The notes under the pieces: generated by a model
What the model was told of the DNA's origin: nothing
Seen by the model: the letters and a program-made list of their open reading frames with translations, nothing else
The model's database searches: none
Translations under genes and position numbers: made by a program
DNA from: Gracilinema caldarium DSM 7334
GTDB taxonomy: Bacteria > Spirochaetota > Spirochaetia > Treponematales > Breznakiellaceae
Assembly: GCF_000219725.1 (NCBI RefSeq)
Contig: NC_015732.1
Coordinates: 1 to 64,000, forward strand
Direction of reading: 5' to 3'
Length of the DNA stretch: 64,000 nt
In this document: positions 30,918 to 61,274 of the stretch, piece after piece
How positions within the stretch are numbered: position 1 is the stretch's first letter
How the letters are laid out: every line of letters starts with the position of its first letter

Positions 30918-31457
30918 ATGCAGATTGATGAATTACAGGCCGTATTCCGGTGTTGCCCCTGTTGTGGTGCAGAACAGGTAGTAATTTCCGGGGATCACCG
31001 GATATATTGCTCTGCCTGCGGCTTTGAATATTTTCACAATGTGGCCACTGCGGTAGGAGCGCTTATTCTTACCAGAGAAGGACTTCTCTTGCTCGAACGG
31101 GCTAAGGATCCTGCCCGGGGTAAATTAGCACTGCCTGGTGGTTTTGTTGACCCCGGAGAGTCCCTGGAAGAAGCTTTGTCTCGGGAGTGTATGGAAGAAA
31201 TTGGCTGGAAAGCCGAGCTCCATCGGATGGAGTATTTGTGTTCCTTTCCTAATACCTATCGCTATAAGGATATTCTGTATCATACCTGTGATATGTTTTT
31301 TTTATTTAGGCAGGATTCGTTAGATATAACTATGTTATATAGTGATCCTACCGAAGTTACCAGCTTATCTTTAATCCCTCTTGAAAAGCTGCAGTTGGAA
31401 GATCTCGCTTTTGAATCCACCAGAAAGGTAATAGAACTACTGATAAAGACGTATTAG
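30918..31457 (+). CDS. NUDIX hydrolase with N-terminal zinc ribbon
   Basis: The protein has 179 residues. A zinc ribbon is formed by CCPCCG and CSACGF (about 12-37), then a Nudix domain with the box GGFVDPGESLEEALSRECMEEIGW near 75-98, complete for GX5EX7REUXEEXGU. Zinc-ribbon Nudix proteins include NADH/ADP-ribose pyrophosphatases, but the NudC SQPWPFPxS tail is absent. The substrate is unknown. The upstream AAGGGGATAGGG gives the start. Confidence 0.88.
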   Translation: MQIDELQAVFRCCPCCGAEQVVISGDHRIYCSACGFEYFHNVATAVGALILTREGLLLLERAKDPARGKLALPGGFVDPGESLEEALSRECMEEIGWKAELHRMEYLCSFPNTYRYKDILYHTCDMFFLFRQDSLDITMLYSDPTEVTSLSLIPLEKLQLEDLAFESTRKVIELLIKTY

Positions 31458-31480: not shown

Positions 31481-32434
31481 GTGAAACGGCGTATTTTTAT
31501 TGGGCTCCTTATTTTTGGTCTGTTAAGTCTCATTGCACTCACCAACTCTATCTACCTTATGATACATTTGGATAGTCTGGGTTCGCAGCAGATTGATGGA
31601 GCTTTACCGAAATATATATTTGCATTTTATGTACCGCCTACTTCGAGCAGATACTTTCAGGATATAAAAAAGGGCGCTGAACTTGCTGCTCAAGAACATC
31701 ATGTGGTGCTTTCGTTCCATTCGATAGATCCTAAGGATAATGAGATTCAGCAGGCGGTTATTTCAGATTTTAATGGATATATACTATGCCCTTATAATGA
31801 AGATACAACCCTTCATTCTCAGGTAGTTAAACTTCAGAATGAGAAAAGACCGGTAGTCATCATAAATCATACAATAAAAACTGATAAACCAGTCCCATTT
31901 ATCGGTTCAAATAATTATGATGTAGGTAAAAAAATGGCTCAGCTCATAAAAAAAACAGAAAAATCGGTACATCAAATTGCTATAGTGTATAGCCAAAAGA
32001 ATCCCTGGATATATGCAGATAGAGAACTGATAGAGCTGGGGATACGAAATGAACTTCAGAATACGGAACAGTATGCTATAACCCGTTTTGAAACTAGGTT
32101 AAATCCACTTGATGCTGAAGCGCTTATTTATAAAATAATAAAAAATTACCCAGAAATGAATTATGTTCTCTTTACAGATTCTAATGATACAATTGCTGCT
32201 GCGCAAGCCTTAATCGATATGAATGAAGTAGGCCGAGTACAGTTGATAGGATTTGGGAATGACAAAGTAATCAGGGACTATATTCGAAAAGGGGTTATTA
32301 CTGCATCTGTGGTAATAAGTCCAGATAAAATTGGTTACCAGGCTGTAAAATCATTGGTTGAACTGGTAGATTCAGGATTTACATCTGCTGCTGTTGATGT
32401 GGGAATAGAAATCGTTGAAAAGGATAGTCTATGA
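31481..32434 (+). CDS. Membrane-anchored periplasmic sugar-binding protein, probable co-sensor
   Basis: The protein has 317 residues. One N-terminal helix (about 5-27) anchors a type I periplasmic-binding/LacI-like domain (ELAAQEHHVVLSFHSIDPKDNEIQQAV, VVIINHTI, NYDVGKKMAQLI, IGFGNDKVIRDYIRKGVITASVVISPDKIGYQAVKSLVEL). It overlaps the histidine kinase gene by ATGA, so it is more likely to present ligand to that kinase than to serve transport. GTG 31481 is the only start that keeps the membrane anchor; the message may be leaderless. Confidence 0.82.
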   Translation: MKRRIFIGLLIFGLLSLIALTNSIYLMIHLDSLGSQQIDGALPKYIFAFYVPPTSSRYFQDIKKGAELAAQEHHVVLSFHSIDPKDNEIQQAVISDFNGYILCPYNEDTTLHSQVVKLQNEKRPVVIINHTIKTDKPVPFIGSNNYDVGKKMAQLIKKTEKSVHQIAIVYSQKNPWIYADRELIELGIRNELQNTEQYAITRFETRLNPLDAEALIYKIIKNYPEMNYVLFTDSNDTIAAAQALIDMNEVGRVQLIGFGNDKVIRDYIRKGVITASVVISPDKIGYQAVKSLVELVDSGFTSAAVDVGIEIVEKDSL

Positions 32435-33921
32435 AAAAGAATATCCGTAACTCATTCTTTATGCAGATTGTAATAAGTATATTTGGTGTTTTTGGTTTAT
32501 TGGTAATTTCTACAGCTTACATATTATATTCTACTATTCAACTGCAGAATTATGCAGATCAGAGTTTTCAGAAAGAGCGTTATTTAAAAAGTATACAAGA
32601 AGCTTTGCTTTCGTATCAGGACCCATTATTGGAATATCTTTCTACACGATCTTCAAATGCATTAGCGAAACATTTAATAGAATCACAAAATTTAAGGAAG
32701 CGTCTTCCGGATAAAAAGAAATTGTCTAATGATTTTAATGAGATACGAGAACAGGAGATATATAGTCTAATCCGTCGTTTTTTAGATATGGCTGATACCG
32801 CTGTAGAGCAAAAAAGGGGAAGAAATATAGAAGCTTATATCAATCTGTATGATGATATGACTTCTTTATTAACATATATTAATGATGAAATTGAGCATGT
32901 AAGTACTGAACGTTTTAAAAATCAAATCGATAAATATGGTAATTTTATCAGATATTCTCAAAAAATAATTTTATCTAATTTATTGTTTATTGTCTGTATA
33001 TCTCTCTTTTCTGTAATATTACTTATACATTCAGTTCAAAAAATGACAGAACCATTGATACATCTTTCAGCGATGGCAACTGAGATTTCTTCTGGTAACT
33101 TTACTGTAGCGGATATCAAATTAAGTTCTATTTATGAAATTGATCATGTTGTTGATGCTTTCAATAAAATGAAAAAAGAGATCTGTCATTATATAGAAGA
33201 AATGAGGCTTCAGGAAACAATTAAACAAGAGTACATGCAAGAAAGAATGCGGAATTTAAAAATGGAAGATTTGCTGAGACGAATGGAGACTTATACATTA
33301 CAAGCTCAGATGAATCCCCATTTTTTATTCAATACGCTTAATACAGGTATGCAGCTGGCAATTGTGGAAGGAGCGGATAAGACATCTGAATTTATGGAGT
33401 ATCTATCATTACTTTTTCGTCATAATATAAGGAATAAAGAAATCATTGTGCCTTTACGGTATGAGATTGAGGGAATCAGATATTATTTTTATATCTTAAA
33501 ATTAAGATTTCCTAAGAATTTAACATTGATCTTGGATTGTCCCGAAGAAATACAGGATATGTATAAGGTACCTGTTTCTATACTGCAACCACTGGTAGAG
33601 AATTGTATTGTTCATGCTTTTAAAAATAATGACAGTCAGAAAATTATTGAAGTTCGGGGAGAATTAAAGGGTTCCTCTTTATACTTAACAGTACAGGATA
33701 ATGGTTCAGGTATGTCAAAGGAGAAAATAGATGAACTATTGCATCCTATTCCTATAGAAGAAACATCATCTAGAGTTATGGGACTGGAAAATGTAATTCA
33801 GCGACTAATTTTTTTTTATCCTGATACACCTGATGTAATTAAGATAATCAGCAGTCCTGGAATGGGTACAACCATACAAATTTGTATCGATACGGAGAAA
33901 GAACCATGTATCGTGTATTGA
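32431..33921 (+). CDS. YesM-type sensor histidine kinase
   Basis: The protein has 496 residues. It has two membrane helices (about 11-33 and 180-201) around a small helical extracytoplasmic domain (35-178). A HAMP region follows (about 202-255), then a His_kinase domain with QAQMNPHFLFNTLN, phospho-acceptor His297, and a GHKL ATPase with LQPLVENCIVHAF and DNGSGM. The sensor domain is too small to be a sugar-binding domain itself, which fits reliance on the adjacent binding proteins. It overlaps its response regulator by 16 bases. The gene is strongly AT-rich. Confidence 0.93.
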   Translation: MKKNIRNSFFMQIVISIFGVFGLLVISTAYILYSTIQLQNYADQSFQKERYLKSIQEALLSYQDPLLEYLSTRSSNALAKHLIESQNLRKRLPDKKKLSNDFNEIREQEIYSLIRRFLDMADTAVEQKRGRNIEAYINLYDDMTSLLTYINDEIEHVSTERFKNQIDKYGNFIRYSQKIILSNLLFIVCISLFSVILLIHSVQKMTEPLIHLSAMATEISSGNFTVADIKLSSIYEIDHVVDAFNKMKKEICHYIEEMRLQETIKQEYMQERMRNLKMEDLLRRMETYTLQAQMNPHFLFNTLNTGMQLAIVEGADKTSEFMEYLSLLFRHNIRNKEIIVPLRYEIEGIRYYFYILKLRFPKNLTLILDCPEEIQDMYKVPVSILQPLVENCIVHAFKNNDSQKIIEVRGELKGSSLYLTVQDNGSGMSKEKIDELLHPIPIEETSSRVMGLENVIQRLIFFYPDTPDVIKIISSPGMGTTIQICIDTEKEPCIVY

Positions 33922-35396
33922 TTGTAGATGATGAAGAACCGGTATTAGATAGTTTTTCCTATATGATTAAAGAATATAGTTCAGATTTTGTTTTAGCCGG
34001 TAAAGCTCGAAATGGTTTTGAAGCATTAAGTGCCATACATGATTTGCAACCGGATGTTGTATTTATGGATATTAATATACCTGGAATGGATGGATTAAAA
34101 GTTATAGATACAGTACATAGCCAATATCCTCATATGATTTTTGTATTATCAACTGCTTATGAACGGTTTGATCTTGCTCAAAAGGCAATACCTCTTGGCG
34201 TACACGCATATCTAGTAAAACCGATAAGTAAAAAAATGTTTATAGGTACTTTAGAAGAAATAAAGAATAAACTTGATAAAAATCGTTTGGCACGAAATGT
34301 AAATGAAAATCGGCGAAGTATGGATACCTTTTTTGCTCAACTTATGAAGGGTGGTTTTGAAGAAGATGATATAGAAAATATAAAGGAAAATCTTGGTATT
34401 ACCTATAATCACGGACGTATTTTTATTATTGAAATTGAAGAAAATAACCAAAAAATATTACAAGAAATTGCATTACGATTGTCAATGAAGTATTTTTGTC
34501 TTTTTGATATGAATGGTGTTCGAGGTTTATTTTTTATCGCTGGAAGTATAGATAAAGATGAATTGCACAAGCGTTTATTTGAAATTATAAAACAATGTCT
34601 TCAGATAGATATCGATGTTGCTATTGGTATCGGTATTGAAAAAGAACTGAATGATTTATATGAATCTTATGAAAGTGCATTATCTGAATTGATAAATAAC
34701 AAAACTAATGAAAAAAAATTGTTTAGAGAGCGAATGCTTATTGTCCAAATTCGGAAAAAAATAGGATTTATTCCAAAATCTGAAGTAATAAAACTCTATG
34801 AGACATATCTTGATGAATTGTTTGAAAATAATCAATTACAAATTGCTAAATGTAAATTAATAATTTTATTTGCATTATTATATGATGATTTAAGTAATTA
34901 TTATAAAGATACAGAACCAGTAGAATATTTATTTCCTTTAGAACAGGAAATCATGAATAGTAAAAGTAAGGAAGAATGTAATAGTCGGGGAAGATCTATA
35001 TTCAGCAGATTATACGATCTGTTTGCGGAAAAACGAAACCAGGCAATGCCGATTCCATTGTTAAAGGCGATACATTACATGCAGGATCATTATTCAGAAC
35101 CAATACAGCTGAGTACTGTTGCAGATGCTGTTTTCATTTCACCTGCATATTTAAGTAGAATATTTACTGAATATCTTTCAACAACTTTTATAGATTATTT
35201 AACTGATTTAAGAATATCAGAAGCGCAAAAATTGATTAAAAATACCAATATGAGTATAAAAGAAATAGCAAGTAAAGTTGGTTATTCAGATCCCAATTAT
35301 TTCGGTAAATGTTTTAAAAAAATTACTGGATATACACCTACAGATTATCTTGAAAGGTCTCAGAATGACACAGGAGTGTATCATTATGAAAAATAG
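33906..35396 (+). CDS. YesN-type response regulator with AraC output domain
   Basis: The protein has 496 residues. The receiver domain starts MYRVLIVDDEEP, with Asp8/Asp9 and phospho-acceptor Asp55 in VFMDINIPGMDG and the Lys of YLVKPIS. A ~240-residue middle follows, then an AraC/XylS pair of helix-turn-helices at the C terminus (IQLSTVADAVFISPAYLSRIFTEYL and IKEIASKVGYSDPNYFGKCFKKITGYTPTDY). The receiver motif sets ATG 33906 rather than 33882. It probably activates the xylF operon downstream. It overlaps the kinase and the following lipoprotein gene. Confidence 0.94.
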   Translation: MYRVLIVDDEEPVLDSFSYMIKEYSSDFVLAGKARNGFEALSAIHDLQPDVVFMDINIPGMDGLKVIDTVHSQYPHMIFVLSTAYERFDLAQKAIPLGVHAYLVKPISKKMFIGTLEEIKNKLDKNRLARNVNENRRSMDTFFAQLMKGGFEEDDIENIKENLGITYNHGRIFIIEIEENNQKILQEIALRLSMKYFCLFDMNGVRGLFFIAGSIDKDELHKRLFEIIKQCLQIDIDVAIGIGIEKELNDLYESYESALSELINNKTNEKKLFRERMLIVQIRKKIGFIPKSEVIKLYETYLDELFENNQLQIAKCKLIILFALLYDDLSNYYKDTEPVEYLFPLEQEIMNSKSKEECNSRGRSIFSRLYDLFAEKRNQAMPIPLLKAIHYMQDHYSEPIQLSTVADAVFISPAYLSRIFTEYLSTTFIDYLTDLRISEAQKLIKNTNMSIKEIASKVGYSDPNYFGKCFKKITGYTPTDYLERSQNDTGVYHYEK

Positions 35397-36426
35397 TCAA
35401 TATATTTATCTGAGTATGATAGTTTTGTCCGTATTACTTACATGTACAAATAGGACTACTACATCTGACTCTAAAAAAATAACCATTGGATTTTCCATCG
35501 CAACTGATACATTTATTCTTGAACGTTGGAATAAGGATATCAATATTTTTTCTAGTACCGCTAAAGAACTAGGCGCAGAAGTAATTTTGCAGCTATCGGC
35601 AGGTGGAACGAAAGAACAGATTGATCAGATAAATTATCTATTAAAGCAAAACATTAATGTTCTGGTCGTTATAGCTCACGATATGGAAATGATTGCAGGA
35701 GTAATTAAACAGGCTCACGATGCCGGGATACCTGTAATAGCATATGACAGGATGATTATGAATGTTCCGATAGATGCCTATATCTCATTTGACAATGAAG
35801 AAGTAGGAAGATTATTCGGTAAAGCACTTACTGAAAAGGTTCCAAAAGGCAGATATCTTATTGTGAACGGTTCTGTACGAGATAATAATAGTTTTCTTGT
35901 TCATAATGGTTTGATGGACATACTGCAACCCTATGTAAATAGGGGTGCAATACAAATCGTACAGGATATTTGGTTACAAGAATGGAGTTATGATGAAGCA
36001 CTTGAAAAGATCGGGAAGGTATTCGACAGTACTACTGATATAGATGCAATTTCTTGTGGGAATGATCAAATTGCGAGTGCTGCTATACAAATATTATCAG
36101 AACGTCGTATGGCTGGAAAAGTTGCAGTAGTTGGGCAGGATGCAGATCTTATATCTTGCCAGCGGGTTGTAGAAGGAACACAATTAATGACTGTGTATAA
36201 ACCAATTGCAAAGCTTGCCAGTCGTGCAGCCAAATTGGCTATTGCCTTGGCTTCAAGAGAAGCATTCCCCTATGATACATTAACGGATAATAAAAGTGGA
36301 GCCATGATTGCAAGTTATATAGAAAAACCTATTGCGGTATATAAAAATACTATTGATGAAACGATAATAAAGGATGGATTCCATTCAAAAGATGATATTT
36401 ATCGAAATGTCCCACTGGTAAAATAA
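35386..36426 (+). CDS. XylF-like sugar-binding lipoprotein
   Basis: The protein has 346 residues. ATG 35386 gives a lipoprotein signal (MKNSQYIYLSMIVLSVLLTC, lipobox LLTC). The mature part is a type I binding protein close to D-xylose-binding XylF (GFSIATDTFILERWNKD, VIAYDRMIMNVPIDAYISFDNEEVGRLFG, CGNDQIASAA, VVGQDADLISCQRVV). It overlaps the regulator's stop by 11 bases, so it may be a second co-sensor rather than the transport binding protein; xylF follows separately. Surface or periplasmic side cannot be decided. Confidence 0.87.
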   Translation: MKNSQYIYLSMIVLSVLLTCTNRTTTSDSKKITIGFSIATDTFILERWNKDINIFSSTAKELGAEVILQLSAGGTKEQIDQINYLLKQNINVLVVIAHDMEMIAGVIKQAHDAGIPVIAYDRMIMNVPIDAYISFDNEEVGRLFGKALTEKVPKGRYLIVNGSVRDNNSFLVHNGLMDILQPYVNRGAIQIVQDIWLQEWSYDEALEKIGKVFDSTTDIDAISCGNDQIASAAIQILSERRMAGKVAVVGQDADLISCQRVVEGTQLMTVYKPIAKLASRAAKLAIALASREAFPYDTLTDNKSGAMIASYIEKPIAVYKNTIDETIIKDGFHSKDDIYRNVPLVK

Positions 36427-36570
36427 TGACATAAAAATATTACTTATTTAAAAATAGTATATACATGTTTCTTAAAAAAAATACGATGTAATGATAAAAC
36501 TTTACGATTTTCAAATTGGATGAACCAACTCCATAATAAAACAAATCACTACCATGGAGGTATGGGACTT

Positions 36571-37686
36571 ATGAAGAAAATCGTATCATTTCTTTTGATT
36601 CTCGGTCTTGCAGGCTCAATGGCCTTTGCATCTGGTTCTCAGCAACAGGCTGCCAGTGGTGGAAAAGCTCCCCTTATTGGTTTAGCAATGCCTGAAACCC
36701 ATGTTGAACGTTGGCAAAAAGATGGTGCTGCCTTAAAAGCTGATGCTGAAGCAAAAGGGTACCGGGCTGAAGTAACCTATGCTGATGCAGATCAGAGCAA
36801 ACAAAATCAACAGATCCAGGATATGCTGACAAAAGGTGCAAAACTGCTCGTTATTGGTTCTGTTAATGAAGGTGTAGTATCCGCCGTATCCGATGCTGCA
36901 AAGGAAAAGGTAATTGTAATTGCATATGACCGGCTTATTACCGGTACTGCTGATTATGATTACTATATCACCTTCGATAACTTTAAAGTTGGCCAGTTCC
37001 AGGGTAAGGCACTGGAAACAGCATTGAACCTTCCTGCAGGTTCTAAGGATAAACCAAAATATATTACCTTGTTCGCCGGTTCACCCACCGATAATAATGC
37101 TAAGGTGTTCTTTGACGGTGCTATGGATGTTCTAAAGAAATATGTGGATAGTGGTGTTCTAAAAATTGTTGGTCCTGCTCCCTTAAGCTCCTCTGATACA
37201 GCTAATTTCACCAGAATCACTACTGAAAACTGGCGTGCTGATGTTGCAAAGGCTCGGATGGAAAACCTTCTGAACAATGATGCCAAGAATGTTGTTCTTG
37301 ATGGTGTTTTGGCTCCTAACGATACTTTGGCACGAGCAATTATTGAAGCCTGTGCTTCCGATGCAAAGTATGCTGGTGGAAAACTGCCTGTAGTTACCGG
37401 TCAGGATGGTGAAGTTGCTTCTATAAAGGCAATTAAAGAAGGCAAGCAGTATATGACCGTATTCAAGGATACTCGCAACCTTGCAAAAGCAGCAATTGAA
37501 TTGGCAGATGCCCTTTTAAAAGGACAAACCCCCAATATTCCTGGTGCACGGCTTGATACTACTTCCTATAATACCGGTAAAAAGGTTGTAAAATCCTATC
37601 TGTTGGAACCTGTTGTGGTAACCAAAGATAACTATAAGCAAATTATGATTGACAGTGGCTATTATAAAGCTTCTGATATAGAATAA
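36571..37686 (+). CDS. xylF: D-xylose (or related sugar) ABC transporter substrate-binding protein
   Basis: The 371-residue protein is periplasmic. ATG 36571 follows GGAGGT by nine bases and gives a signal peptide with probable cleavage after SMAFA. Family segments include GLAMPETHVERWQKDG, VIAYDRLITGTADYDYYITFDNFKVGQFQG, VLAPNDTLARAIIEAC and VTGQDGEVASIKAIKEGKQYMTVFKD. It is the first gene of xylF-xylG-xylH and is separated from xylG by a stable hairpin, which would favour a high binding-protein yield. Close to the lipoprotein upstream but distinct from it. The sugar specificity is inferred from the family. Confidence 0.92.
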   Translation: MKKIVSFLLILGLAGSMAFASGSQQQAASGGKAPLIGLAMPETHVERWQKDGAALKADAEAKGYRAEVTYADADQSKQNQQIQDMLTKGAKLLVIGSVNEGVVSAVSDAAKEKVIVIAYDRLITGTADYDYYITFDNFKVGQFQGKALETALNLPAGSKDKPKYITLFAGSPTDNNAKVFFDGAMDVLKKYVDSGVLKIVGPAPLSSSDTANFTRITTENWRADVAKARMENLLNNDAKNVVLDGVLAPNDTLARAIIEACASDAKYAGGKLPVVTGQDGEVASIKAIKEGKQYMTVFKDTRNLAKAAIELADALLKGQTPNIPGARLDTTSYNTGKKVVKSYLLEPVVVTKDNYKQIMIDSGYYKASDIE

Positions 37687-37759: not shown

Positions 37760-39283
37760 ATGAGTGAGTATATACTTGAAATTGAAAATTTAACGAAAGA
37801 TTTTCCTGGTGTTCGTGCCTTGGATCATGTCAGTTTGAGAGTGAGAAAAGGTGAAATTCATTCTCTCTGCGGGGAGAATGGCGCAGGTAAATCTACCCTG
37901 ATGAGTGTTATCAGCGGTGTATATCCGAAGGGTAGTTATGAAGGAAAGGTCTTTTTTAAAGGGAAAGAAACACACTATCACAGTGTTAAGGATAGTGAAA
38001 AAGAAGGTCTTGCAATTATTCATCAGGAACTGGCATTAAGTCCTTATCTTTCGATATATGAGAATATTTTTTTAGGACATATGCGGACATCGCTGGGGAT
38101 AATTAACTGGGACTATTATATCAAAGAGTCACAAAAATATCTGGAACAGGTAGGTCTCAGAGAAAATCCAGCAACCATTGTTAGCAAAATGGGAGTAGGG
38201 AAACAGCAATTGGTAGAAATTGCCCGTGCGCTTTCTAAAAAAGTAGAATTATTAATCCTCGATGAACCAACCTCGTCTTTAAATGATGATGAAAGTGAAA
38301 AGTTGCTTAAGCTTATTTTGGAATTAAAACAGCAGGGAATTACCTGTATCATGATAAGTCATAAATTGAACGAAGTACTCGAAATAGCCGATACGGTAAC
38401 TGTGCTACGCGATGGTAAATCAATATCAACCTATGATGTGAAAAAAGATAAACTAACAGAAGCAATGCTGATACGAGATATGGTAGGCCGAGATCTAACG
38501 ACCCGTTTCCCGGAACGTAAAAATAAACCTGGCGAAGTTATTTTAGAGGTAAAGAATTGGACTGTATATCATCCAGATTATCACACGATCAAAGTAGTCG
38601 ATAATGCATCGTTCTATGCTCGCAAAGGAGAGATCGTCGCTTTTTGCGGTCCTATGGGTGCAGGACGTACCGAACTTATGATGAGTATTTATGGCCGGTC
38701 TTATGGTTCTCGAGCAGAGGGAGAACTGCGAATGAGGGGTCAAAAAGTTGATACCAGTGATACACGGAAAGCAATTGAAGCAGGCATAGGATATGTATCT
38801 GAGGACAGAAAAAATCTTGGTCTTATTTTAATTCAGGATGTAAAGTCAAATATTTCTATTTCGAGTTTAAATAAATTATCGAAAGTCGGTGTGGTGAATT
38901 CTTCTTTGGAAATCCGAGAAGCTGAACGATTTAAAAATGAACTCCGTATTAAGACCCCATCGATACATCAGTTGACCAGGAATCTTTCTGGCGGAAACCA
39001 GCAAAAAGTTGCATTAAGCCGATGTATGCTTTCAGATCCGGAAATATTTATTGTTGATGAACCAACGAGAGGTATTGATGTGGGAGCAAAATCAGAAATC
39101 TATCATATTCTTAATGATATGGCTGCTTATGGAAAAACCATAATCATGGTGACATCCGAATTACCGGAAGCAATTGGAATGGCAGACCGAATATATGTAA
39201 TGAATGAAGGCCGAATCAAGGGCGAACTTACCCGAGATGAGGCTACCCAAGAAAAAATAATGCATATTGCGTTGTTAAATTAG
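37760..39283 (+). CDS. xylG: Sugar ABC transporter ATP-binding protein (XylG type)
   Basis: The 507-residue duplicated ATPase powers sugar import. The first domain has Walker A GENGAGKST near 38-46 and signature MGVGKQQLVEIARALSKKVELLILDEPTSSL. The second has a degenerate Walker A (GPMGAGRTE, with Arg for Lys, usual in this class) and the signature LSGGNQQKVALSRCML with IFIVDEPTRGIDVGAK. It lies between the binding protein and the permease genes in a standard order. Confidence 0.95.
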   Translation: MSEYILEIENLTKDFPGVRALDHVSLRVRKGEIHSLCGENGAGKSTLMSVISGVYPKGSYEGKVFFKGKETHYHSVKDSEKEGLAIIHQELALSPYLSIYENIFLGHMRTSLGIINWDYYIKESQKYLEQVGLRENPATIVSKMGVGKQQLVEIARALSKKVELLILDEPTSSLNDDESEKLLKLILELKQQGITCIMISHKLNEVLEIADTVTVLRDGKSISTYDVKKDKLTEAMLIRDMVGRDLTTRFPERKNKPGEVILEVKNWTVYHPDYHTIKVVDNASFYARKGEIVAFCGPMGAGRTELMMSIYGRSYGSRAEGELRMRGQKVDTSDTRKAIEAGIGYVSEDRKNLGLILIQDVKSNISISSLNKLSKVGVVNSSLEIREAERFKNELRIKTPSIHQLTRNLSGGNQQKVALSRCMLSDPEIFIVDEPTRGIDVGAKSEIYHILNDMAAYGKTIIMVTSELPEAIGMADRIYVMNEGRIKGELTRDEATQEKIMHIALLN

Positions 39284-39294
39284 AAGGAGCAGGT

Positions 39295-40485
39295 ATGAGC
39301 GATACGACAGTCACATCTTCATCTATCAGAAATCTTATTAAGGCAAACATACGGAATTATTCCATGGTCCTGATGCTTGCCCTGATTATGATAATATTCT
39401 CTTTTTTAACTGATGGCGTAAATCTCAATTCTCGTAATTTTACCAATATTTTCATGCAGAACAGTTATATTCTTCTGCTCGCAGTTGGAATGGTTCTGGT
39501 AATAATTGTAGGAAATATAGATCTCTCCGTAGGTTCGGTTGCTGCTTTTATCGGTGCTATTAGTGCCATGCTCTATAATTCTGGTGCCAATATGTTTGTA
39601 ACCATATTGTTAAGCATCATTCTCGGTGTACTTATTGGTGCGTTTCAGGGAGCATGGATTGCTTACGCAAAGATTCCTGCTTTTATTGTTACTTTGGCAG
39701 CGCAATTACTCTTCAGGGGTCTCACGTATATCATTACTAATGTAAGCCCCATATCCCTACGGGATGATAATTTTAAACAAATAGCATCCGGTATGGCAAA
39801 TATAAATGTTCTCACAATTAATGGGGTGTATTACACAGCTCTAGTAGCAGGTGTAGTAGTATTTCTCATATATGTGGTTTTAGAGATTCAGGGGCGGCGA
39901 AATAAAATAAAATATGGTTTTAAAGTTTCTCCTATGAGCTTTTTTATAATTAAACTGTTGGTAATAGGACTCTTAATTTTTGGACTAAGCCAACGTTTTG
40001 CAACGTACCGCGGTATACCAATAGTGGTGATTGTATTAGGGGTAACTATTATATTCTTTAGCTTTATTACTAATAATACGGTAATAGGCCGCTATATCTA
40101 TGCTGTCGGTGGAAATGCACGATCTGCAAAGCTGTCCGGTATCAATTCTGAATTAGTTGTATTTGTAGTTCAGCTCATAATGGGGGGACTAACTGGTCTT
40201 GCTGGAGTTGTGTTTACTGGTTATATGAACTCTGCTCTTCCGCAAGCTGGTAATAACTTTGAACTTGATGCGATTGCAGCATGTTTTATCGGCGGAGCTT
40301 CAGCAAGTGGTGGAATCGGTACGGTTATTGGTGCGATAGTAGGTGGACTTGTAATGGCTGCAATAAATAATGGAATGTCATTGATGAATATTCAGGCCCA
40401 GTGGCAATATGTGGTAAAAGCGTTGGTACTTCTCTTGGCTGTATTCTACGATATTTATACCCGAAGAAAGACTGGTTTGGGTTGA
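39295..40485 (+). CDS. xylH: Sugar ABC transporter permease (XylH type)
   Basis: This is the membrane channel subunit, 396 residues with about 10-11 helices. The motifs VGMVLVIIVGNIDLSVGSVAAFIGAI and AVGGNARSAKLSGINSE (the loop contacting the ATPase), and LDAIAACFIGGASASGGIGTVIGAIVGGLVM are typical of the AraH/RbsC/XylH family. It has an AGAAGGAG site, follows xylG by 11 bases and ends before a strong terminator. Confidence 0.95.
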   Translation: MSDTTVTSSSIRNLIKANIRNYSMVLMLALIMIIFSFLTDGVNLNSRNFTNIFMQNSYILLLAVGMVLVIIVGNIDLSVGSVAAFIGAISAMLYNSGANMFVTILLSIILGVLIGAFQGAWIAYAKIPAFIVTLAAQLLFRGLTYIITNVSPISLRDDNFKQIASGMANINVLTINGVYYTALVAGVVVFLIYVVLEIQGRRNKIKYGFKVSPMSFFIIKLLVIGLLIFGLSQRFATYRGIPIVVIVLGVTIIFFSFITNNTVIGRYIYAVGGNARSAKLSGINSELVVFVVQLIMGGLTGLAGVVFTGYMNSALPQAGNNFELDAIAACFIGGASASGGIGTVIGAIVGGLVMAAINNGMSLMNIQAQWQYVVKALVLLLAVFYDIYTRRKTGLG

Positions 40486-60224: not shown

Positions 60225-61274
60225 ATGACGGTAAAAGAAATTGCAAAACTAGCAGGTGTTTCCATAGGGACTGTCGACCGTGTATTGCACGGCCGGGGCC
60301 GAGTTTCACCTGAAACGAAGGCCAGAATAGAAGAGATAATTAAAAAGTCAGGATTTACCCCCAATCCTATTGCCCGGGGACTGAAGCGGAGCCGTCCCTT
60401 TGCCTTTGTTGCACTCCTTCCTCAACGGGATCAGGATTCGGGATATTGGGGGCAGGGTTATGGCGGTCTTCAATCTGCCTCGGAGGAACTCTCCCCCCTG
60501 GGTATAAAGACTATTTTTATTGAATATGATCGGTATAATCCGGCTTCTTTTCATGATGCGGTATACCAGTTCAATAAACTCCATTGTGACGGGCTTCTCC
60601 TGCCACCCATCATGCCGGAAGAAAGCAGGGTCTTTGTAGAATCGATCCAGGGGAAGATTCCTTATATTTATTATGATGCAGACCTGCCCGGAACTGAACC
60701 GCTCTGTGTTATCGGTCAGGATGCATTCCGGGGAGGGATGCTCGCTGGCCGTCTTGCCCAGCTTTTAGCCTGCGGGAAAAGGGGAGCTTTCGGAATTTTG
60801 GTAGCCCATCAGGAAGATTATCATATCTTACGACGCCGGGATGGATTTTATGAATATGCCCATCAACATGGCCTCAAGGTGTTTCAGCAACAGGGGGTGG
60901 ATCTTGAACATCCTGAGGCTGCCTCAACCCTTATAAAAAATCTTCTTGATACCCATGAAGATCTGTTAGGGGTCTTTGTAACCAGTGCATCGGCCCACCG
61001 CATTGCCGAAGCCGCCCGGGAAATACGAAAAAACAACCACTTTATTATTATTGGATATGACCTGGTGCCGGAAAACCACCGGCTTCTCCAGGAAGGAGCT
61101 CTGGATGCAATTATTTCCCAGCGGCCAGAAACCCAGGCGCGGCGTGGGCTCCTGCAGCTCTATCGGGCTATTGTGCTGGGTAAGTCTATCCCGAAACGCG
61201 AAGAAATCCCCCTGGATCTCTATCTTCCCGAAAATGTGCCCCCATATCATAGAGAAGCAACGACTCACAGGTGA
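60225..61274 (+). CDS. LacI-family transcriptional regulator
   Basis: The protein has 349 residues. Its N-terminal helix-turn-helix and hinge read VKEIAKLAGVSIGTVDRVLHGRGRVSPETKARIEEIIKKSGFTPNPIARGLKRSRP; the effector domain resembles ribose-type binding proteins (IPYIYYDADLPG, FRGGMLAGRLAQLL, IIIGYDLVPENHRLLQEGALDAIISQRPETQARRGL). The GTVDRVLHGRGRV variant is found among regulators of pentose or polyol use. It is convergent with an FGGY kinase whose promoter carries a palindrome, its likely target. Clearly more GC-rich than the AT-rich pectin genes before it. Confidence 0.92.
   Translation: MTVKEIAKLAGVSIGTVDRVLHGRGRVSPETKARIEEIIKKSGFTPNPIARGLKRSRPFAFVALLPQRDQDSGYWGQGYGGLQSASEELSPLGIKTIFIEYDRYNPASFHDAVYQFNKLHCDGLLLPPIMPEESRVFVESIQGKIPYIYYDADLPGTEPLCVIGQDAFRGGMLAGRLAQLLACGKRGAFGILVAHQEDYHILRRRDGFYEYAHQHGLKVFQQQGVDLEHPEAASTLIKNLLDTHEDLLGVFVTSASAHRIAEAAREIRKNNHFIIIGYDLVPENHRLLQEGALDAIISQRPETQARRGLLQLYRAIVLGKSIPKREEIPLDLYLPENVPPYHREATTHR

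Follow-up and report, generated by a model that had tools for sequence, protein, structure and literature searches.

The window analysed here is the first 64,000 nucleotides of contig NC_015732.1 of Gracilinema caldarium DSM 7334 (assembly GCF_000219725.1), and one of its loci raises the question of why a sugar sensor that has its own solute-binding protein (SBP) should carry a second one. The genome of Spirochaeta (Treponema) caldaria H1 is a single contig of 3,239,340 bp (PMC3739177), and this thermophile is free-living and can ferment xylose and arabinose, though not ribose. On balance, our analysis favours a single sugar-sensing unit built on the SBP-kinase-AraC regulator plan, to which a second, dedicated SBP has been added. 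The second SBP (SBP2) would be the detector and the first (SBP1) a kinase-bound adaptor, and together they would control chvE-gguAB. The features of the locus are as follows.

31481-32434, + strand: g1 (SBP1), helix-anchored type I solute-binding protein, XylFII/GanP homologue, GTG start.
32431-33921, + strand: g2, LytS/YesM-type sensor kinase, 4-bp overlap with g1.
32812-32823, + strand: KRGR motif in g2 (kinase residues 128-131), where sensor helices 3 and 4 meet.
33906-35396, + strand: g3, YesN-type response regulator with AraC-type DNA-binding domain, taken from ATG, 16-bp overlap with g2.
35386-36426, + strand: g4 (SBP2), XylF-like lipoprotein, taken from ATG, 11-bp overlap with g3.
36482-36487, + strand: second TACGAT, 21 bp upstream of the TTTACGATTTTC box.
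36501-36512, + strand: TTTACGATTTTC, a box conserved ahead of chvE and a putative binding site of the regulator.
36532-36537, + strand: CATAAT, -10-like element downstream of the TTTACGATTTTC box.
36571-37686, + strand: g5, ChvE-like transport SBP; a conserved GGAGGT at 36556-36561 sets the start, and the open reading frame opens at 36520.
37760-39283, + strand: g6, GguA-like sugar ABC ATPase (best NCBIfam model).
39295-40485, + strand: g7, GguB sugar ABC permease, above the NCBIfam cut-off.

The preliminary description of this locus had reported four genes overlapping by 4-16 bases, a helical kinase sensor of about 145 residues, and two type I binding proteins, one anchored by a helix and the other by lipid. 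All three observations hold: the open reading frames span 31481-36426, the sensor is a predicted four-helix bundle at about residues 35-178, and the anchors are the N-terminal helix of g1 and Cys20 of g4. Domain searches assigned g1 and g4 to Peripla_BP_4, g2 to HAMP, His_kinase and HATPase_c, and g3 to Response_reg and AraC HTH. Since ChvE-GguAB next door brings its own SBP, SBP2 is the third SBP of the locus. A promoter scan found no sigma-70-like site upstream of g1. A NUDIX hydrolase gene (30918-31457) lies 23 bp upstream of g1 and occupies the same place in several relatives in the genus and family; its co-transcription with g1 is possible. Another Peripla_BP_4 binding-protein gene is located at about 60411-61175 of the window.

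The first three genes are of a known kind, the SBP-dependent sugar sensors of the XylFII-LytS-YesN and GanP/AraP type; what sets this locus apart is the dedicated second SBP and an apparent shift of sugar recognition. In the predicted model of g1 (mean pLDDT 89.8), residues 2-34 form a helix and the remainder a complete SBP fold; no lipobox was found in this protein. Its nearest solved relatives, by sequence and by predicted fold, are GanP, XylFII and AraP, all of which are SBPs of sensor systems, and its gene is immediately upstream of, and overlaps, the LytS/YesM-type kinase gene, which is followed by the AraC-type regulator. The kinase comprises TM1, the four-helix sensor, TM2, HAMP, His_kinase and HATPase_c, and its core matches 6swj. 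The sensor model matched LytS 5xsj_L at Foldseek rank 3 (TM 0.80 by target; VIA Z 13.4), a Z value tied with those of other four-helix bundles, so that the fold match is not specific. Assignment to LytS by sensor fold alone was therefore rejected, as many four-helix bundles match equally well.

In published examples of such sensors there are two SBPs, of which one senses and the other serves uptake (PMC10384115). XylFII-LytS-YesN of Clostridium beijerinckii, which works with XylFGH (PDB 5XSJ, 5XSD), resembles our locus in its helix-anchored SBP, its LytS-type kinase with a four-helix sensor, its AraC-type regulator and the sugar ABC transporter next door. However, it has two SBPs only, one sensing and one for transport; its SBP1 retains the Arg, Asp and Gln discussed below, its kinase lacks KRGR, and its XylF sits with XylG, away from the regulator, unlike g4. 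The LytS sensor of C. beijerinckii HUN142 (L144) matches the crystallised one along its length, which confirms that the described system was included in our comparison. The GanP/AraP sensors of Geobacillus stearothermophilus (PDB 6GQ0, 6SW4; kinase domain 6SWJ) are the closest solved relatives of g1 and of the kinase core, but their SBPs bind sugar. The G. stearothermophilus system, as described, senses with one SBP and transports with another (PMC10384115), and a further SBP resembling g4 has not been described in it. CuaD-CuaS-CuaR of Ruminiclostridium cellulolyticum likewise has a dedicated sensing SBP, a kinase, an AraC-type regulator and a separate transport SBP, CuaD and CuaA differing in affinity and specificity (PMC10384115). 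In contrast to our locus, CuaD itself binds cellobiose, the Cua system has no second sensor-linked SBP, and the CuaS sensor contains beta-sheets rather than being a plain four-helix bundle. Docking of a sugar-loaded SBP on a receptor is known from ChvE with VirA-VirG and from maltose-binding protein with Tar, whose receptor domain is a four-helix bundle like the g2 sensor (PMC9769921), although in these cases a single SBP serves both the receptor and transport, and a second, kinase-bound SBP is not involved. No published description of a second sensor-linked SBP was found in our literature search of open-access papers, a result that by itself does not prove novelty. Such a co-sensor had been expected to be unusual, and it does look so.

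SBP2 is homologous to E. coli XylF over its full length and, like the XylG-linked relatives of that protein, keeps the XylF-pocket residues: R47, W48, D121, R122, N168, W200, N226, D252 and K272 are all present in g4. It differs from E. coli XylF in falling below the XylF equivalog cut-offs (295.7 against 389.55 bits for TIGR02634, 312.6 against 504 bits for PRK10355), in its lipid anchor, in its linkage to a regulator and in its membership of a separate clade. It is also not the sole SBP beside XylG/XylH permease genes, as the ChvE gene intervenes. In a tree of 116 rows, the sensor-linked SBP2s of Spirochaetota and Clostridia formed one clade with an SH-aLRT of 100 and zero XylG-linked members, which was recovered again with four long branches removed. 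Within this clade R47, W48, D121, R122, W200, N226, D252 and K272 are each kept in 60-63 of 63 members, and D166 and N168 are likewise highly conserved; 30 positions that hardly vary in XylG-linked XylF have lost their conservation here. A second, smaller group of sensor-linked XylFs, from Paenibacillaceae and Bacillaceae (L166, L168, L171, L190 and related Bacillales loci), falls among transport XylFs and is independent. A single origin of all sensor-linked XylF-like proteins was rejected by the AU test (p about 0.001). Almost every member of the sensor-linked clade shares Cys258 of g4, part of the ACQR region, a residue that XylG-linked XylFs do not conserve.

The anchoring Cys at residue 20 of g4 is invariant among the aligned spirochaete homologues. 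The g4 lipobox, VLLTC, has Thr at -1, a position usually taken by Ser, Gly or Ala in the homologues. In eight clostridial SBP2s the N terminus is a hydrophobic helix that lacks Cys, which would suit a sensory rather than a transport SBP.

The sugar contacts of RbsB, which we take to include Arg141, Asp215 and Gln235, gave a different picture for SBP1. At the equivalent positions g1 has Ile, Gly and Ile. The Arg141 equivalent was present in 0 of 53 SBP1s partnered by clade SBP2, against 21/21 in other systems; the Gln235 equivalent in 1/53 against 19/21; and the Asp215 equivalent in 19/53 against 20/21. XylFII D103 (5XSD) did not fit the numbering of the full-length protein and was left out of this pocket comparison. 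The SBP1 family of the window has a conserved pocket set of its own, namely Cys64, Asn89-His90 and Asp190 (RbsB numbering), and the pocket residues vary among paralogue groups. SBP1 may thus bind a different ligand, not none, and in this family the ligand may have changed rather than been lost. One group counts against the reading preferred here: in the Paenibacillaceae and Bacillaceae group, a sensor-linked XylF occurs alongside an SBP1 that retains Arg, Asp and Gln.

The kinase also carries a mark of the clade. Of the 54 kinases that have a clade SBP2 as partner, 47 contain KRGR or a close variant, against 0/8 in XylG-linked systems, while the kinases of the Paenibacillaceae group showed a single KRGR match, elsewhere in the sensor domain. 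The clade-specific conserved residues are Ser75, Lys128, Arg129, Gly130, Arg131 and Tyr136, which the helix order of the model would place at the membrane-distal end of the sensor. In XylFII-LytS, the SBP touches sensor helices 3 and 4, and maltose-binding protein works via the four-helix domain of Tar (PMC9769921). It is therefore plausible that SBP2 docks at the KRGR tip. Long open frames in G038, G046, G048, G055 and L196 could be taken for SBP1-kinase fusions; these are not claimed, because the frames were separate, or merely open upstream, where the neighbourhood was read.

A neighbourhood search, proposed in the preliminary description, showed that the order SBP1-kinase-regulator-SBP2 recurs across several families of the order and in Bacillota (Clostridia and Bacillales), and it is present twice more in the same genome, at 2.05 and 2.25 Mb. 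The four-gene arrangement is therefore not a matter of chance. SBP2 homologues are almost always directly behind the regulator, and none of them is the only SBP beside a permease. Within the sensor-linked clade, a median of 116 nt separates the regulator stop from the SBP2 core, which leaves room for a signal peptide only, whereas the ChvE core begins a median of 305 nt after SBP2, and never less than 210. XylG-linked XylF genes show the reverse spacing, about 69 nt to XylG and at least 225 nt from any upstream regulator. The transporter lies within a few hundred bases downstream in most loci; SBP2 stays behind the regulator also where there is no adjacent transporter (L099, L087, L134), where the transporter is upstream (L181), and in L111, whose MglBAC-type transporter has its own SBP. 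L111 (G000:C1:2052900-2061600) consists of a paralogous four-gene sensor followed by this galactose/glucose transporter in place of ChvE-GguAB. In Thermoanaerobacterium saccharolyticum, a sensor-linked and a transport XylF occur within one operon.

Among the 58 genomes, counted by matches at about E 1e-40 or better and with genome relatedness ignored, 29 had both kinase and SBP2 and 26 had neither; the kinase occurred alone in 1 genome, and SBP2 alone in 2, where it lay at contig ends. GguB was found in 42 of the 58, 11 of them without SBP2. In G016 (88% complete) the kinase and a divergent SBP1 were present, and SBP2 was not found. Together with gene order and clade structure, the co-occurrence makes SBP2 a likely member of the sensory unit. 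G016 counts against it, as do two genomes in which SBP2 is placed with the transporter, apart from its kinase (G008), or at the far end of the transport operon (G030). Because the 80 named loci were picked for their resemblance to g4, they include too few distant transport XylFs. A small number of evolutionary events may underlie the associations of pocket and motif, and the correlations are not independent.

The transporter had been taken for xylFGH, activated by the sensor. A plain XylFGH identity was rejected, because the NCBIfam scores favour ChvE-GguAB: GguB scored 466.6, above the cut-off of 450, and ChvE (371 against 460) and GguA (763 against 810) scored below theirs, each being still the best model. 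What stands of that proposal is that the transporter operon has a conserved upstream box of its own; its transporter is ChvE-GguAB-like and adds a third SBP. Nowhere else in the genome do the TTTACGATTTTC box and CATAAT occur in this combination, and relatives have the box in the corresponding gap. Its position before chvE fits a separately regulated transport operon, and the g3 regulator would bind at this box. D-xylose or a related aldose is the probable ligand, since g4 is XylF-like and a xylose isomerase gene comes after the transporter in G008 and shares its contig in G007. Linkage to xylose isomerase in this genome was rejected, xylA being at 3.1 Mb and unlinked.

We infer the following division of labour from these sequence comparisons. 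SBP1, held in the membrane by its helix, would sit on the four-helix kinase sensor. As a lipoprotein of the XylF type whose aldose pocket is intact, SBP2 would bind the sugar and, once loaded, dock on the complex of SBP1 and kinase, perhaps where the sensor tip carries the conserved KRGR. Docking would switch the kinase on, the regulator would be phosphorylated, and the phosphorylated regulator would activate the chvE-gguAB operon from its own promoter at about 36500. The preliminary description had suggested that the two SBPs compete for or jointly present a ligand to the kinase. Gene order, clade structure and co-occurrence with the kinase support the presence of both in the sensory unit; competition for the same ligand is not supported, because SBP1 lacks the canonical sugar ligands exactly in those systems that have clade SBP2.

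Alternatively, g1-g3 could be an ordinary three-component sensor in which SBP1 detects the sugar, with g4 as a second transport SBP of different affinity or specificity for the GguAB permease. Both E. coli and C. beijerinckii use XylF as a transport SBP, the g4 pocket is complete, a transporter lies within a few hundred bases in most loci, and g4 stays with it in G008 and G030. However, the transporter already has its own SBP, ChvE or MglB, and g4 overlaps the regulator gene and precedes the conserved chvE box. It is also kept where the transporter is upstream or not adjacent, and across genomes it tracks the kinase better than GguB. The missing canonical ligands of SBP1 and the 30 relaxed XylF positions of the clade argue against a transport role as well, and we regard it as unlikely.

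The conserved pocket set of SBP1 in the window's family would instead agree with two ligand-binding sensors of different ligands or affinities, so that the kinase would integrate two signals or a wide range of concentrations. CuaD and CuaA do differ in affinity and specificity (PMC10384115), and elsewhere in the same genome two SBP domains are naturally fused in one protein encoded behind a kinase and a regulator. Yet the SBP1 pocket residues vary from one paralogue group to another and the canonical aldose ligands have been lost, which makes sensing by both SBPs rather improbable. Accessory lipoproteins play a negative role in some two-component systems, and g4, co-encoded with the kinase and membrane-anchored, could sequester sugar or keep the kinase off until loaded. 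This is very improbable, as there is no positive evidence for inhibition and the known SBP-sensor relatives usually activate upon ligand binding (PMC10384115).

The reading with SBP2 as detector and SBP1 as adaptor can be extended, tentatively, to a widespread four-component sensor. Here SBP1 would have given up canonical sugar binding to become an adaptor, and an anchored, sensing-only XylF-type SBP, separate from that of the transporter, would read the sugar and dock on the SBP1-kinase complex. If this is true, a large sensor family of spirochaetes and clostridia uses two binding proteins, a detector and an adaptor, and a clade scored by family models as sugar-transport SBPs is really sensory. 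It would also provide a testable case of one SBP losing its canonical ligand residues while another takes over, illustrate how SBP-kinase complexes gain components, and offer modular parts for sugar biosensors.

The two-domain fusion mentioned above is a 632-residue helix-anchored protein with two tandem SBP domains, encoded at G000:C1:2487362-2489257 (L116:7363-9261). Its gene is directly behind those of a kinase and a response regulator and is followed by a gene for a similar single-domain SBP and by ABC genes. This natural fusion is conserved in several relatives.
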